Made by a program: the position numbers and the translations under genes. Below, one piece after another: positions 10,776 through 19,898 of a stretch of DNA of 35,800 bases. Position 1 is the stretch's first letter. Every line of letters starts with the position of its first letter. The notes beneath the pieces were generated by a model. That model saw only the letters and a program-made list of their open reading frames with translations, was not told the origin of the DNA and made no database searches. Source of the stretch: a virus; the IMG/VR virus record IMGVR_UViG_3300045902_000030, positions 1 through 35,800 of that record; one strand, written 5' to 3'.

Positions 10776-10831
10776 TGGGTGTGAGAAGAATATCGGGTCA
10801 CTTATACCTGACACTCACGGAGCGATAATAG

Positions 10832-11710
10832 ATGAGAGGAATCACCGTAAATCACAACAAGATCAAGAATACAGGCGTACTTTTTGAAATTCTGGTTCGT
10901 CAGATAACATCTGATATACTGGAGGGTCGCACTGATTCAGCAGCACTGAATATTTTAAAGAAATATTTTGGTGCCAATCGAGAACTTGGTAAAGAACTGC
11001 AACTTTATCAAGTCATATTCAATGCGCCGAATCTTAATGAATCGCGAGCATTGCAATATCTCAATATGATTATCAAGCAAAGAAAAAAGCTTGATGAACG
11101 AAAACTTGCCGCAGAAAAATATGAACTTATCAAGGAAATTAAGAATTATTATGACCTTGAAAAGTTTTTGTCATGCAAGATTCCTTCCTATAAGCTCCAT
11201 GCGTCAATTTATAAGACGTTCATGGCCGAAGCAAAATTTGGCGGAGATGCCATTCTGAATATTCAGGATGTAGCGTCCGCTCGTTTTACTTTAATTGAAC
11301 ATCTTATTGGCACCGGTCGTAAGAATGCTAAGAAAGAAGAGTCGGCACTTCTTGAAGAATTCAAGAATCAAACAGAAGATCTACGCTTATTGACTTATAA
11401 GATTATGATCGACCGATTCAATGAAAAGTATCAAGATTTAAATGACAAACAAAAGTCACTTCTTCGAGAATATATTAATGATGTTTCTGGTAATAACACC
11501 TTAAAAAATTACATTCTTCAAGAAGTGCCGACTCTTCGCAATAGCATTCAACGAAAGAGCAATCGTCTAAATGACCGAGTTATGCAAATTAAGATCAACG
11601 AAGTTATTTCACAGCTTTCAAATATTGGAAAAAATCGCGGTATCAAAGATAACGAAATTACGGCTTTGATGATTGCATATCAGATTGAAAAGGAGCTCGA
11701 CAATGAGTAA
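10832..11710 (+). CDS. Helical head-region protein between portal and protease
   Basis: The protein has 292 residues, is predicted almost all-helical and is rich in Lys, Glu, Ile and Asn. The segment KNTGVLFEILVRQITSDILEG near the N-terminus recurs, from memory, in other uncultured T4-like phages at this locus. It lies between gp20 and gp21, where T4 carries the prohead core genes 67 and 68, so a role in the prohead core is a positional inference only. It is far longer than T4 gp67 or gp68. Its 3' end overlaps the next gene by 8 bases. Confidence 0.7.
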   Translation: MRGITVNHNKIKNTGVLFEILVRQITSDILEGRTDSAALNILKKYFGANRELGKELQLYQVIFNAPNLNESRALQYLNMIIKQRKKLDERKLAAEKYELIKEIKNYYDLEKFLSCKIPSYKLHASIYKTFMAEAKFGGDAILNIQDVASARFTLIEHLIGTGRKNAKKEESALLEEFKNQTEDLRLLTYKIMIDRFNEKYQDLNDKQKSLLREYINDVSGNNTLKNYILQEVPTLRNSIQRKSNRLNDRVMQIKINEVISQLSNIGKNRGIKDNEITALMIAYQIEKELDNE

Positions 11711-12431
11711 TTCCGCACTAAAAAAGCTCATTCGTGAGCTCGTAGAAGAAGAATTGGCCGAGATTAGCACTTCTGCTAATGCCGGTCCTTACAATACGCC
11801 ATTTGCTTTCCGTGGTAACAGTGCCGAGGGTAAGGCTAAGGCCCGGAAGAATGCCACACAAGCTGGTATGTTGGTGGTGAGGGGTAGGGAAGAGAAGGCC
11901 GACGATGCCGGTGAACAGTCGGTTGAAACGGTTCCGTTTGGTGAGAAGGGTGCTGGAGCGTTGAAGAAGCCGAAGGCTGAACCGAAGCCAAAGATTGAGG
12001 AGTCTACTTCTGTAGAAGATCGTATTAAGAATAAAGAAGAGCGACTTAGAAAATTAGAACAATCAAAGAGTAAAATGTGGCAAGGCAGTAAAAAATACGA
12101 TGATACAATTAATACTATTAGAGTTCTAAAACAACAAATTGCCGATCTAAAGAAGGAAAAGTCTTCTTCGAAAACGGAAGTAGTTCAAGAGAACCGATAC
12201 GCGGAACTCAAGGCCGCTGATGGTTCTCCAACTCGTAAAATTGCTGAGGCTGTTCGTGAAATCAACCGACAAATTAGTGAAATTGATCGCGTCGTCACAT
12301 TAAATTCTCGACTGAAGAAAGAATCGGGACTTGACGGCAGCAGTCTCTATAAGAATACGGTAAAGAGCATTACTCGTCTTGAATCAAAATTGCAACATCT
12401 CTCAGCTAAACTTCGCGAACTAAAGGCTTAA
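11703..12431 (+). CDS. Prohead core-like coiled-coil protein (gp67/68 position)
   Basis: ATG 11703 has AAGGAG 8 bases upstream; 242 residues. The N-terminus MSNSALKKLIRELVEEEL has the LIRE motif shared with two neighbouring ORFs and fits a capsid-targeting peptide. Then come a GPYNTPFAF segment, a low-complexity Lys/Glu/Pro linker, and two strongly charged helical stretches (about 100-150 and 175-240) likely to form coiled coils. A second (I/L)xE-like stretch, IEEST, occurs near residue 90. The position between portal and protease, the charge and the coiled coil all fit a cleavable prohead core protein, but homology to T4 gp67 or gp68 is not demonstrated. Confidence 0.65.
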   Translation: MSNSALKKLIRELVEEELAEISTSANAGPYNTPFAFRGNSAEGKAKARKNATQAGMLVVRGREEKADDAGEQSVETVPFGEKGAGALKKPKAEPKPKIEESTSVEDRIKNKEERLRKLEQSKSKMWQGSKKYDDTINTIRVLKQQIADLKKEKSSSKTEVVQENRYAELKAADGSPTRKIAEAVREINRQISEIDRVVTLNSRLKKESGLDGSSLYKNTVKSITRLESKLQHLSAKLRELKA

Positions 12432-12432
12432 T

Positions 12433-13488
12433 ATGAGTCAACTACTTGTTGAATATTTCCCGCTACAATACGATCAGTCTCAGATTCTTGCTGAAGCTGC
12501 AAATCCCCATGCTCCTATTAAAGTTAAGGGTATTTTGCAACGTGCTAATGCTAAGAATCAAAATGGTCGTGTTTATCCCAAAGAAATTTTGGTCCGTGAA
12601 AGTCAAAAATATGAAAATGAGTTTATCAAGCAACGACGCGCGTTGGGCGAGCTCGATCATCCAGAGTGCGTAAGTGATTGTGATATAATGACTTATGATG
12701 GGTGGCGCGATATCAAAACCGTTGAAGTGGGTACCTATGTTGCTACATTGAATACACAGACGCAACGGCTGGAATATCATCCTATTACTCGCGTTATCAA
12801 TCAACCATATAAAGGTGTTATGTATCACATCAAGGGTAAAAATATTGATGTCGTAGTAACACCAAATCATAGATTTGTGCTTCAAGATAGAAACGGTAAA
12901 TTTTTAGAAAAAACGGCGGAAGAAATTTATCAACTATCACAAACACTAACCGTTTCGCATTTGACAATTCCAAATGAACTTTTTATAGAAAAATCAAAAG
13001 GCATTCATCTAGATTTTCGCCATTTGTCAATTGATCCAGTGGATTACGATGACACGGTTCATTGTGTCACAGTAGAAAATGGAACGTTTTATGCTCGACG
13101 AAACGGAAAATCGTTTTGGTCAGGCAATTCCACTGTAGTCAATCTTCGTAATGTCAGTCACAACATCACGGAGATGCACTGGGAGGGTGACGACCTGGTG
13201 GGCACTATTGAAATTCTATCTACTCCATCAGGTAATATTGTCAAAGAATTAATGAAAAATGGCATTCGTCTTGGTGTATCGAGCCGAGGAGTTGGATCGG
13301 TTCGCAATCTCGGTGAAGGTTCTGTTGAAGTAGATGAAGATTTCAATCTCATTTGCTTCGACATAGTTTCAAATCCGTCCACCCACGGTGCATTTATCAA
13401 TGAAAATGCCGGTCATCAAACTGTAAATCGTCAATACGAGTCATTGGATCGTCTAGTATATGACTTTCTTGCTGAGATCAAGCCATGA
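12433..13488 (+). CDS. 21: Prohead core protease (gp21-like) precursor with intein
   Basis: This is the serine protease that cuts scaffold and capsid propeptides after (I/L)xE to trigger head maturation. The precursor has 351 residues. The N-extein (1-78) ends GELDHPE with the catalytic His H76. The C-extein (233-351) starts STVVNLRNVSHNI and contains GVSSRG (S283/S284), the catalytic Ser box. Joined, the exteins give about 197 residues, near T4 gp21 (212). Residues 79-232 are an intein that splits the protease 3 residues after its catalytic His, so the precursor should be inactive. Self-cleavage sites may be LVE7 and LAE21-A. It directly follows the core-like gene and overlaps the next gene (ATGA). 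Confidence 0.92.
   Translation: MSQLLVEYFPLQYDQSQILAEAANPHAPIKVKGILQRANAKNQNGRVYPKEILVRESQKYENEFIKQRRALGELDHPECVSDCDIMTYDGWRDIKTVEVGTYVATLNTQTQRLEYHPITRVINQPYKGVMYHIKGKNIDVVVTPNHRFVLQDRNGKFLEKTAEEIYQLSQTLTVSHLTIPNELFIEKSKGIHLDFRHLSIDPVDYDDTVHCVTVENGTFYARRNGKSFWSGNSTVVNLRNVSHNITEMHWEGDDLVGTIEILSTPSGNIVKELMKNGIRLGVSSRGVGSVRNLGEGSVEVDEDFNLICFDIVSNPSTHGAFINENAGHQTVNRQYESLDRLVYDFLAEIKP
12667..13128 (+). other. Mini-intein in the prohead protease gene
   Basis: This is a 154-residue Hint-domain intein (residues 79-232 of the precursor). Block A starts with nucleophile C79 in CVSDCDIMTYDGW. Block B is VVVTPNHRFVL with T143 and H146. The block F region is TVHCVTVENGTFYA. Block G ends FWSGN with N232, followed by S233 as the +1 nucleophile. 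The penultimate residue is Gly instead of the usual His, a variant I recall from other phage inteins. At 154 residues there is no room for a homing endonuclease, and no LAGLIDADG or HNH motif is present, so it is a mini-intein that cannot home on its own. Confidence 0.9.
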
Positions 13489-13727
13489 AAATAAAGATGA
13501 ATGAACTTCGTCAAATTATTCGTGAAGAACTAAAACATACTTTACTAGAATTTGATGCTAAGGATATGCCGCCTGGTACTAGTTGGAAAGTTGCTGGTAA
13601 GGGGTGGGCTGCTAAGAATAAGAATGGCGTGACCAATTATTGGTATGGTAAGGATATGAACAAGAATAAGGAAAACGCTGATAAATTCCGTAATGACACT
13701 ACTGCTAAGCCAAAAACTGGAGCATAG
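13485..13727 (+). CDS. Small internal-protein-like gene with targeting-type N-terminus
   Basis: The protein has 80 residues and its ATG overlaps the gp21 stop (ATGA). It starts MKIKMNELRQIIREEL, an amphipathic helix with an IIREE motif fitting (I/L)xE cleavage after E14. The rest is basic and small (SWKVAGKGWAAKNKNGV, then YWYGKDMNKNKENADKF), rich in Lys, Asn and Gly. A short N-terminal helix with an (I/L)xE site plus a basic body is how T4 internal proteins are built, and these are packaged and ejected with the DNA. A head-packaged DNA-binding peptide is therefore a fair inference; no family match is known. Confidence 0.6.
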   Translation: MKIKMNELRQIIREELKHTLLEFDAKDMPPGTSWKVAGKGWAAKNKNGVTNYWYGKDMNKNKENADKFRNDTTAKPKTGA

Positions 13728-13734
13728 TCTCAAC

Positions 13735-13749
13735 TATTTATTATAAATA
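13735..13749 (+). promoter_or_regulatory. TATTTAT motif with adjacent T4-type TATAAATA
   Basis: TATTTAT at 13735-13741 runs directly into TATAAATA at 13742-13749, which equals the T4 late promoter consensus. The two share a palindrome (TTTATTATAAA). It lies about 100 bases before the ATG at 13846, in an AT-rich gap. The same CTATTTATTATAAA string occurs at 19907-19920. Confidence 0.5.
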
Positions 13750-13787
13750 AAGACAATTTATTGTAATTAAATTATTAGAAAAACGAT

Positions 13788-13808
13788 ATCAATTATAATA
13801 TTGATTTT
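13788..13808 (+). terminator. Weak AT-only hairpin followed by T run
   Basis: ATCAAT pairs with ATTGAT (6 bp) around a TATAAT loop and is followed by TTT. The stem has few G/C pairs, so termination would be weak; it may be chance in an AT-rich gap. Confidence 0.2.
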
Positions 13809-13845
13809 GTTGAAGCGTAGTTAAATAAACAACTTGGAGATTACA

Positions 13846-14613
13846 ATGCCAGCTAAATCCAAGGCACAAGCTAGATTTATGGGTATGGTTCACGCTTTCA
13901 AGAAAGGTGAAATGCCTGGTGCTTCTGCTGCCGTAAAGAGGGCAGCCAGTAGTATGTCTGATGACGAGGCAAAACGGTTTGCGTCTACAAAACACCGGGG
14001 TCTTCCTGATAAAATTAGGGGTGAGAGTATGTTTGGACAAGTCGTAGCTCAATACAATGAATATGGCGATACGCTTCGTAATTCATTCTCGATGCGAGAA
14101 ATGGCCGAGAAGCTCATGGATATTGCCGATTTTGCAGAACAGACTCTTACCAATGAAACCGCCGGTAATGATTGGTATGATGCGCACACCATTCGTCGTA
14201 ATATAAAAGAAATGCGTGCATATGTGAAAGAATTTCACAAGTTGGCCGAAGAATACGATACCATTCGTACTCGTGCTACGGCATTGTATGATGATATGGG
14301 ACGAGTTCTAGAACGTTATTTTGAAGTTACCGGATATGACACCGATAATGATATGGAAGATGATTTGATACCTGCAAATGGGGAAAAGAACCCTGAACAA
14401 CGAAGTTCACACGTTCCGCAAGTACATGAAACTGATTTTTCTGATGTCGGTGGTATTACTGAACCAAAATCTCGTCGTGATGAACTCAAGAAAAAGTTAC
14501 GGGAGCGGGTAGTAGCTATAGCCCGTCACAAGCTCACGGGCGAACAACTAGTACAATTTGATACACTAGACCCCGCAAAACAACTTCGCGCGGCGTGGAG
14601 AATTGTAAAGTGA
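13846..14613 (+). CDS. DUF3008-like N-terminus with helical C-terminal region
   Basis: ATG 13846 is preceded by GGAGA; an upstream in-frame TTG is rejected. The protein has 255 residues. The N-terminal about 55 residues (MPAKSKAQARFMGMVHAFKK, then FASTKHRGLPDK) match the small DUF3008 proteins, found as stand-alone genes in many bacteria and phages. The rest is helical and charged, with a coiled-coil-like middle, an acidic linker around residue 175 and a basic C-terminus (KSRRDELKKKLRERVV). The fusion of a DUF3008-type head to a long helical body is unusual. It lies between gp21 and gp22, so a head role is possible. Function unknown. Confidence 0.65.
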   Translation: MPAKSKAQARFMGMVHAFKKGEMPGASAAVKRAASSMSDDEAKRFASTKHRGLPDKIRGESMFGQVVAQYNEYGDTLRNSFSMREMAEKLMDIADFAEQTLTNETAGNDWYDAHTIRRNIKEMRAYVKEFHKLAEEYDTIRTRATALYDDMGRVLERYFEVTGYDTDNDMEDDLIPANGEKNPEQRSSHVPQVHETDFSDVGGITEPKSRRDELKKKLRERVVAIARHKLTGEQLVQFDTLDPAKQLRAAWRIVK

Positions 14614-14666
14614 AAAAGCTAATTCGAGAAGAGCTTGAAAACATTATCCTACCGATGTGTAATTAG
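14610..14666 (+). CDS. 18-residue ORF resembling a capsid-targeting peptide
   Basis: GTG 14610 overlaps the previous stop (GTGA), with GGAG at 14597-14600. It encodes only VKKLIREELENIILPMCN. The KKLIREEL part closely matches the N-termini of the proteins at 11703 and 13485. It could be a truncated head-protein gene, a leader peptide for the membrane protein at 14673, or a free targeting peptide. Confidence 0.4.
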   Translation: MKKLIREELENIILPMCN

Positions 14667-14672
14667 AACACC

Positions 14673-15002
14673 ATGCTTCAATTTATAGATAATCTACCGA
14701 CTACACGCATTCGTATTTTAGTTACCATTGGACTCATAGTAGCTACAGTAGTTACATGGCTAAAACACGCATGTGATGTTCGTAGCGCACAAGGCATTTG
14801 TCTTGGATGGGAACCCTCGGCAAATATGATTATGTTTTTGGCGGCATTAGCTGGCGTAGATGTAGCTCAATATTTGAGTAGAGGATTTATTAACAGATCT
14901 GAAACACCTGCCGCATCACAGAAAGTTGTGGAACCCGCCACCGAACCGGCGGTGGAATTTACCACCGATGTATCAGAATTGTCTGAACAAGAAAAAGGAT
15001 AA
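14673..15002 (+). CDS. Holin-like two-segment membrane protein
   Basis: The protein has 109 residues. Two hydrophobic segments are visible: ILVTIGLIVATVVTWL (about residues 14-29) and MIMFLAALAGVDVAQYL (about 52-68), joined by a short loop with two Cys and GWEPS. The C-terminal 35 residues are acidic and Pro/Thr/Glu-rich, which should be cytoplasmic. Size, topology and the charged tail fit small phage holins, but no holin family is recognised and any small virion membrane protein would look similar. There is no clear Shine-Dalgarno sequence; it starts 6 bases after the 18-residue ORF, which may couple its translation. Confidence 0.55.
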   Translation: MLQFIDNLPTTRIRILVTIGLIVATVVTWLKHACDVRSAQGICLGWEPSANMIMFLAALAGVDVAQYLSRGFINRSETPAASQKVVEPATEPAVEFTTDVSELSEQEKG

Positions 15003-15013
15003 ACGGGGTATAC

Positions 15014-15289
15014 ATGGGAAAGAAACAGAATAAAGAAAAGGCCACGGGTCTTGAAGTTTATGTAAATTTGTCCGGTGAAAATAAGAAGGACCGAGATGCC
15101 GTAGATCTTGCTCTACGAGAGCTTAAGAAAAAAATTAAAAAGAGTGGTCTTATGCAAGAGCTTCGTATACGAGAGGCATATATGTCACCTTCAAAGTATC
15201 GTAAGTATCGCAAGAATGAGGCCATTAAGCGGCGGAAGCGGGATGAACGTAAAAACGAATGGTCACGTAAAAATACTACTGAATGGTAA
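15014..15289 (+). CDS. Ribosomal protein bS21-like protein
   Basis: The protein has 91 residues and is very basic. Residues about 31-82 follow the bS21 pattern: an ALRELKKKIKKSGLMQELRI helix, the REAYMSPS turn, and a long Arg/Lys helix (KYRKYRKNEAIKRRKRDERK). Cellular bS21 is about 70 residues; here there is an extra 25-residue N-terminus. bS21 sits near the mRNA exit channel of the 30S subunit and influences initiation. Phage-encoded bS21 homologues are known and are thought to join host ribosomes and favour phage mRNA. Its place inside the head gene cluster, just before the scaffold, suggests late expression. A basic head protein that resembles bS21 is the alternative. Confidence 0.7.
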   Translation: MGKKQNKEKATGLEVYVNLSGENKKDRDAVDLALRELKKKIKKSGLMQELRIREAYMSPSKYRKYRKNEAIKRRKRDERKNEWSRKNTTEW

Positions 15290-18251: not shown

Positions 18252-18286
18252 ATTTGATCAAATCGTGGTTTGGTCATAACACATCC

Positions 18287-18293
18287 TACTTAT
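18287..18293 (+). promoter_or_regulatory. TACTTAT motif upstream of the HNH endonuclease
   Basis: TACTTAT (context CCTACTTATAG) lies between the capsid terminator and the homing endonuclease, 24 bases before its ATG. With the GGAGGT ribosome binding site at 18309-18314, this would give the endonuclease its own transcript. Confidence 0.35.
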
Positions 18294-18317
18294 AGAAGAA
18301 CGCCCCATGGAGGTATT

Positions 18318-19898
18318 ATGACAAAATCATATAAAAACCGCCCGCCGCGAGGAAAGACTTCAAAAAATACACCGTGGCATCGGCCGTGTCCACAATGTAA
18401 ACAAACCATGTATTATTCCTCAAAAGGAAATTTAGTAAAGGCAATCAAAAATAATCGTGTATGTATGCAGTGTAAAAATATATTCACTGATGAGTATCGG
18501 CAAAAAATTGCCAGTTCACTCAAGGGTAAAACATACATAAATCGTAAATCAAATAAGAAAACGACTATTAGCACATTCCATAAATCGTGTCCGGCATGTA
18601 ATAGTATCATATACTATGCAAACAAATATTCACTTGATCGTTCCATACGAACCAATGCGGTGTGTAATGGTTGTGCGTCGCACCTATACAAAAAAACATT
18701 CAACTGTGTTATTACACAAGATCATATCAATAAAATGACAGCCACAAAGGCTGGCTACGACAGTTATGACGAATATGTGATTGATTATCCAAAAAAGCAA
18801 CAATACCGGCGAGAGGTCCGCCGGATCACACGAGCACAACCCATTCATTTGTTGCCAAATTATTCTGCTTATCAAACAAGCGTTGGTAGAAATGGGATAC
18901 AAAATGCTTATCAACTTGATCATATCATAAGCATTGACGAGGGCTATAAACGAAATATTCCACCGCATGTGATCGGCAATATTAAAAACCTACAAATCAT
19001 TAGTTGGGAACATAATATTGCAAAGCGGAATAAACCATCACAGTCGTTTTATTCGTGGATACACGATATCTTGAATGATGCGGTATTTGATCATATGGTC
19101 GGTCAATTTCCAGTATCAGTATATTCAAAACAGCACGGCGCAGTCATTCACTATACCGATATACGAATTGACGGTGAGTTTAGCTCAGGTATATCATCAT
19201 CATCCCTGTATAAAGTTCGTCAGACGGTGCTTGATAGAAATGAAATATTTATCAATGTATTTAGTTCTGAGTGGGAAGAAAAAACCGAGTTGGTGAAACA
19301 TAAAATTTTACATATTCTGAATCGTTCGTCAACGACCCCACTCTATGCTCGCACAATGCGCCCGGCGGTGATTTCTAATACCGTTGCGAAAGAATTTTTA
19401 GAAGAACATCATATTCAAGGATTTACCCCATCAACATATTATTATGGATTATACCACGGTGTTACTTTGGTTGCTGTGATGACATTTTCCAAAAACCGTG
19501 TTGTTACTGGTAATCGCCCTGCCGAAAACACATATGAGATGGTACGATATGCTACACATATGAATTATAAGATTATTGGTGGATTTTCAAAATTATTACA
19601 ATTTTTTATCCGTGAACATAGGCCAATTACAATATATTCATATGCCAATTTACGATATAGTCAATCAACCACAGTATATGACCGTACCGGATTTAAACCT
19701 ATACATACCACCGCACCTGGATATTTTTATGTCAAGGATGGCATGGCGTTGCACCGGTATAGATTTAGAAAATCAACACTGGTATCACAGGGATATGACC
19801 CGAATTTGTCTGAAACCGATATTATGAAACAACTTGGATACGACCGAATTTGGGACTGCGGGCACCGTCGATATGAACTAAATTGTTTAAACGACTAA
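18318..19898 (+). CDS. HNH homing endonuclease with shared C-terminal domain
   Basis: This free-standing homing endonuclease has 526 residues. ATG 18318 follows a perfect GGAGGT; an upstream in-frame TTG is rejected. Two zinc ribbons lie at the N-terminus (CPQC...CMQC about residues 23-52; CPAC...CNGC about 92-120). The HNH nuclease core is LDHIISI (D201-H202), KNLQ (N224) and WEHNIAKRNK (H232). The C-terminal about 190 residues (YARTMRP, GLYHGVTLVAVMTFSK, GGFSKLL, YDRIWDCG) form a GNAT-like domain that also ends the second endonuclease at 25881. It sits between gp23 and the neck genes as an insertion, is AT-richer than its neighbours, and probably spreads by cutting related phages lacking it. 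Confidence 0.88.
   Translation: MTKSYKNRPPRGKTSKNTPWHRPCPQCKQTMYYSSKGNLVKAIKNNRVCMQCKNIFTDEYRQKIASSLKGKTYINRKSNKKTTISTFHKSCPACNSIIYYANKYSLDRSIRTNAVCNGCASHLYKKTFNCVITQDHINKMTATKAGYDSYDEYVIDYPKKQQYRREVRRITRAQPIHLLPNYSAYQTSVGRNGIQNAYQLDHIISIDEGYKRNIPPHVIGNIKNLQIISWEHNIAKRNKPSQSFYSWIHDILNDAVFDHMVGQFPVSVYSKQHGAVIHYTDIRIDGEFSSGISSSSLYKVRQTVLDRNEIFINVFSSEWEEKTELVKHKILHILNRSSTTPLYARTMRPAVISNTVAKEFLEEHHIQGFTPSTYYYGLYHGVTLVAVMTFSKNRVVTGNRPAENTYEMVRYATHMNYKIIGGFSKLLQFFIREHRPITIYSYANLRYSQSTTVYDRTGFKPIHTTAPGYFYVKDGMALHRYRFRKSTLVSQGYDPNLSETDIMKQLGYDRIWDCGHRRYELNCLND

Follow-up and report, generated by a model that had tools for sequence, protein, structure and literature searches.

Why does the prohead protease gene of a T4-like phage carry 154 additional codons between the residues of its catalytic triad, and do these codons serve the phage or simply persist in it? 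The gene is found in a 35,800-nucleotide stretch of viral DNA (positions 1 to 35,800 of IMG/VR record IMGVR_UViG_3300045902_000030; hereafter, the window), whose source is a T4-like phage, and consists of a single uninterrupted open reading frame of 351 codons (12433-13488). Its product is a T4 gp21-type prohead protease with a 154-residue intein between His76 and Ser283. The protein belongs to Peptidase_S77 (Pfam E=6.9e-25; 88.1 bits against a cut-off of 27), and the flanks of the insert also match the head maturation protease family phrog_207. The protease itself comprises the following features:

12433..12666, plus strand: N-extein, residues 1-78, ending in GELDHPE; matches Peptidase_S77 and phrog_207 and aligns with residues 1-87 of T4 gp21
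12445..12453, plus strand: L-V-E (residues 5-7), a putative N-terminal autocleavage motif by alignment with LIE-9 of T4
12658..12660, plus strand: His76, aligned with the catalytic His85 of T4 gp21 and invariant among empty alleles
13129..13488, plus strand: C-extein, from S233 (+1) to the end of the protease, stop codon included; from the sequence and Pfam
13279..13281, plus strand: Ser283, aligned with the serine that is Ala in the T4 gp21 crystal chain 5JBL
13360..13362, plus strand: Asp310, third residue of the presumed triad; an invariant column corresponding to the Asp of the T4-type triad (PMC5694885)

By alignment to T4 gp21 (PDB 5JBL, family S77), which has no intein and is only about 27% identical in sequence, all three triad residues (H76, S283, and D310) are present in the window protease. 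Of the two serines of SSR in the GVSSRG box (residues 281-286), the first is presumed to be catalytic; T4 gp21 also has Ser at this position, and in its crystal chain both His85 and this Ser are replaced by Ala. A sequence-only reading of the locus had placed a mini-intein 3 residues past the catalytic His, separating the His box from the serine box. The coordinates and residues that it named (C79, TPNH, N232, S233, H76, GVSSRG) agree exactly with the ORF translation, the alignment to His85 of T4 gp21 supports the identity of the His, and both Ser283 and Asp310 are located beyond the intein. Near the head genes, the phage also encodes ribosomal protein S21 (window positions 15014-15289; Pfam E=5.7e-10).

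The insert, as judged from its sequence, is a class 1-type mini-intein that is predicted to splice. Its recognizable parts are the following:

12667..13128, plus strand: mini-intein, 154 aa, C79 to N232; Pfam Intein_splicing, empty site in L008, HINT fold of the model
12859..12870, plus strand: block B T-P-N-H (T143-H146), conserved across the aligned same-site inteins
12973..12984, plus strand: scar of endonuclease loss, N181-F184, where ~214 residues of L117 are missing; from alignment to L117, L009, and L118, next to a low-confidence model loop (184-186)
13063..13065, plus strand: Cys211, block F position 4 (intein residue 133), invariant in the aligned gp21 inteins
13123..13128, plus strand: Gly231 (penultimate) and Asn232 (terminal); all 37 inteins at this site share the Gly

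The insert starts with Cys1 (C79, codon 12667-12669), carries the block B TxxH motif in the form of TPNH, and ends with Asn followed by Ser (N232, codon 13126-13128, and S233, codon 13129-13131), an arrangement typical of class 1 inteins. The class 3 alternative, a WCT triplet (B:12, F:4, G:5) without Cys1, is ruled out by the presence of Cys1 and by Phe in place of Trp at B:12; F:4 is Cys, and G:5 is Ser. Between blocks B and F there is no endonuclease domain, only the four-residue scar. In profile searches, the 154 residues matched Pfam Intein_splicing with E=2.2e-8 and 34.5 bits, 1.3 bits short of the cut-off of 35.8, and scored below the cut-offs of the NCBIfam intein models; same-site relatives from L015 (44.7 bits) and L009 (37.7 bits) exceed the Pfam cut-off. 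In the AlphaFold2 model of the precursor, residues 79-232 form a compact beta domain (pLDDT mostly 83-94 in the blocks, with one low loop), and the flanking exteins match T4 gp21, with low confidence for the His loop 72-76. The closest PDB matches of the modeled insert found by Foldseek are inteins (6zgq, E=5e-9, TM 0.82 on target). It is the only intein found in the window.

The insertion is exact. In 97 intein-free gene rows, the spacing from GELDHP to SSR is constant at 55 residues; in the window it is 209, that is, 55+154, which argues against a chance resemblance to an intein. Starting at the portal gene and continuing beyond gp21, the sister contig L008 is collinear with the window (~80-85% DNA identity); the DNA alignment stops at 12667 and resumes at 13129 on the same base, so that exactly the intein segment is absent. 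The empty protease of L008 matches T4 gp21 both in sequence (E=1e-14) and in fold (E=4e-14, TM 0.79 on target), and its triad residues align with those of T4 as well. Given this clean empty site and the constant spacing, the possibility that the insertion is part of the normal gp21 fold is ruled out. The nearest protease (94% amino acid identity) and its next relatives are intein-free. A distant DNA search with window positions 11673-14700 against the phage collection returned no match. Between its portal gene and the next gene, L008 carries a free-standing endonuclease gene (1984-2589) that appears GIY-YIG-like by sequence reading and is missing at the corresponding place in the window (about 10827-10865).

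If the insert splices as a class 1 intein, the 351-aa precursor would be translated with the folded intein parting His76 from Ser283 and Asp310; an N-S shift at Cys79 would be followed by transfer to Ser233, and cyclization of Asn232 would release the intein and ligate Glu78 to Ser233, joining HPE to STVV in a 197-aa protease. Because a folded intein would stand between His76 and Ser283, protease activity should need splicing and, on structural grounds, the unspliced precursor is likely inactive, as the sequence-only reading had proposed. Its further suggestion, that Gly in place of the penultimate His may slow Asn cyclization, is opposed by precedent. The penultimate His is common but not obligatory in class 1 inteins, and Gly occupies this position in all 37 main-site gp21 inteins, mobile full-length members included. 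The mycobacteriophage RDF intein splices to completion with Gly at this position, and a Gly-to-His change slows it strongly and makes precursor accumulate (PMC5050341). The block F His, which is able to substitute for the penultimate His (PMC5050341), is common yet less conserved among class 1 inteins, where it occupies position F:13 (PMC4031507). The window intein has NGTF in that region and no such His. With both helper histidines absent, its competence to splice is judged from family precedent.

A survey of IMG/VR and phage records found 39 gp21 inteins for which the two junctions could be read; near-duplicate contigs contribute some of these. All 39 start with Cys1, and 37 are inserted, within about one residue, at the main site HP(x)|S; one-residue shifts are seen in L007 (HPDS|S) and in L146 and L152 (HP|SS). 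The other two, in L022 (3155-4198, penultimate His) and L143 (3989-5074, penultimate Leu), occupy a second site, GE|xDHP, two residues upstream of the catalytic His. Every aligned member has Cys at block F position 4, and none of the listed C-terminal sequences shows the block F His that is usual in inteins. Most gp21 inteins are full-length (344-393 aa) and carry LAGLIDADG motifs; mini-inteins are found in the window (154 aa), in L007 (151 aa), and in L131-L133 (152 aa). A relative of L131, L135 (3680-4549), has a frame change at its NGN|S junction that is either a lesion or a sequencing error. A scan of genome contigs with an alignment of the full-length inteins picked up two unrelated host proteins and nothing else; by sequence reading, one is FolE-like and the other papain-like. 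An intein is present in an apparent papain-like protease from an Omnitrophota MAG (L171:3791-5686), where, by sequence reading, the catalytic Cys is seemingly the +1 residue. The intein itself belongs to a known kind; no earlier description of a gp21 intein family, or of any intein in a prohead protease, was found in the open-access literature searched. The inteins of phage vB_CcoM-IBB_35, for example, are located in the terminase, PhoH, and NrdA.

The histories of the inteins and of their host proteases are in conflict. In the splicing-domain tree, the window intein pairs with the full-length intein of L117 (support 100/96), whose phage has a protease only about 51% identical to that of the window; the mini-intein of L007 pairs with the full-length one of L036 (97/92), and L131-L133 form a third group. 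Well-supported branches of this tree force at least three changes between the full-length and mini forms, read here from the sequences as endonuclease losses. In the protease tree, the window groups with the empty L008 (SH-aLRT 93) amid other empty alleles, and L117 falls into a different clade, as would be expected from homing. Intein presence on that tree requires at least 11 changes, 5 of them forced by well-supported branches, but these counts are approximate because this is a quick tree with long branches. By parsimony only, the intein was gained in the window lineage rather than lost in L008. Recent homing is indicated by L010 (3074-4183) and L011 (3041-4150), diverged phages whose full-length inteins are 99-100% identical in DNA, compared to 53-97% in the surrounding DNA (mostly 53-93%, with 97% in one downstream stretch), and dS is 0.013 for the intein versus 0.436 for the extein. 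The branch of the window intein is longer than that of its L117 partner (0.46 vs 0.09) and could reflect weaker constraint. The dN/dS values of about 0.4 for the window intein against L117 and 0.08-0.17 among the L131-L133 mini-inteins are consistent with retained splicing function. The mini-inteins of L131, L132, and L133 (3986-4441) show less divergence than the exteins around them (for L131/L132, dS is 0.165 versus 0.646, and identity is high across the intein plus ~240 bases downstream), which suggests either recombination or mobilization in trans.

Taken together, the anatomy, the exact empty site, the mobile relatives at the same site, the gene-tree conflict, and the repeated endonuclease loss identify the insert as, very probably, an endonuclease-less descendant of a mobile gp21 intein, predicted to be self-splicing and presumably kept because its imprecise loss kills the protease. 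Its ancestor would have been a full-length LAGLIDADG homing intein aimed at the catalytic-His codons of T4-like gp21 genes; it would have entered the window phage lineage horizontally, with the endonuclease domain deleted before or after arrival. A deletion that missed the exact boundaries would cost the phage an essential protease; selection would maintain efficient splicing, with no delay. We infer that the intein splices in vivo, that the precursor is inactive, and that the insert persists for this reason; a block to re-invasion is possibly an additional effect.

The sequence-only reading had instead proposed a timing switch, in which a domesticated intein delays protease activation and head maturation through slow or signal-dependent splicing. 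An intein that keeps Ser and Asp apart from the catalytic His, and so should leave the precursor inactive, would suit such a switch, as would the at least three origins of versions without the endonuclease, and tuning of phage splicing has been proposed (PMC5050341). Nevertheless, a switch appears highly unlikely, given that the 94%-identical protease and other relatives do without the intein, that most inteins at the site are full-length homing ones, and that the penultimate Gly is family-wide and compatible with complete splicing. Besides, in T4 gp21 the N-terminus already blocks activity, and the block is lifted when the protease cleaves itself inside the assembled prohead (PMC9958956). The T4 autocleavage motif is LIE-9 (PMC9026906, PMC9958956), L/I-x-E/D motifs resembling L-V-E are found in most homologs, and, with its L-V-E aligned to LIE-9, the window phage probably already has a timing mechanism. 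The wider proposal, that splicing is tuned or held until core assembly and that repeated endonuclease loss reflects selection for timing or homing immunity, is also quite improbable. If an adaptive reason is sought, homing immunity is more plausible than timing: the mini-intein would break the recognition site and shield gp21 from full-length inteins of co-infecting phages. This explanation, compatible with the descent of the insert from a mobile intein, is unlikely but deserves consideration, as full-length inteins at this site are common and recently mobile. Metagenome 3300025162 contains a mini allele (L006) beside a full-length one (L128), as does 3300032319 (L131 and L126, respectively), and 3300032053 has inteins at the two sites (L117, L191, L022) along with an empty gp21 (L060). 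Such co-occurrence in deep metagenomes, seen in 2 of the 6 mini-bearing samples, is circumstantial and may be trivial.

Movement of the mini-intein by the endonuclease of a related intein, or by a free-standing one, could explain the lower divergence of the L131/L132 mini-inteins relative to their exteins. However, ordinary homologous recombination accounts for these tracts, no LAGLIDADG gene was detected among the window ORFs scanned, and the window has a single intein, which makes such mobility improbable. The window does contain a 542-aa ORF (18270-19898) whose C-terminal part matches PHROG homing endonuclease/HNH families; this label may be wrong and, having neither Pfam nor PDB support, the ORF was rejected as a trans-acting partner. 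Finally, the long branch and the missing helper histidines might point to a degenerate insert that has lost splicing, with the gene inactive or the insert tolerated. This is extremely unlikely: the frame is open, every nucleophile is intact, the intein fold is modeled with confidence, the extein is under strong purifying selection (dN/dS 0.026 against L008), and no second gp21 was recognized among the window ORFs examined.

The insert resembles several known systems. In fold, it is a compact HINT domain like the gp41-1, NrdJ-1, and AceL NrdHF inteins (PDB 6qaz, 8ubs, and 6zgq), but it is contiguous and has Cys1. Those three are split inteins, with AceL NrdHF of class 3. The mycobacteriophage RDF intein (Bethlehem gp51) is likewise a phage class 1 intein with a penultimate Gly, located beside a conserved active-site motif, but it resides in another host protein, retains its endonuclease, and has had its splicing measured, whereas the window intein is known from sequence (PMC5050341). 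The mycobacteriophage TerL1-a and TerL1-b inteins are alleles one residue apart at the catalytic motif of a head/packaging enzyme; they are sporadically present, like the gp21 inteins, and assembly is thought to be blocked before splicing, but their site is the terminase P-loop, not the prohead protease (PMC5050341).

These data add the active site of the prohead protease to the targets of phage inteins and bring to light a broad family of gp21 inteins: at one site, alleles may be empty, full-length, or stripped of the endonuclease in independent events, and there is a second site as well. With all allele types at the same site, a comparative test of why mini-inteins persist (neglect, homing immunity, or regulation) becomes possible, and the family, which misses both helper histidines, offers a natural set for the study of Asn cyclization in their absence.
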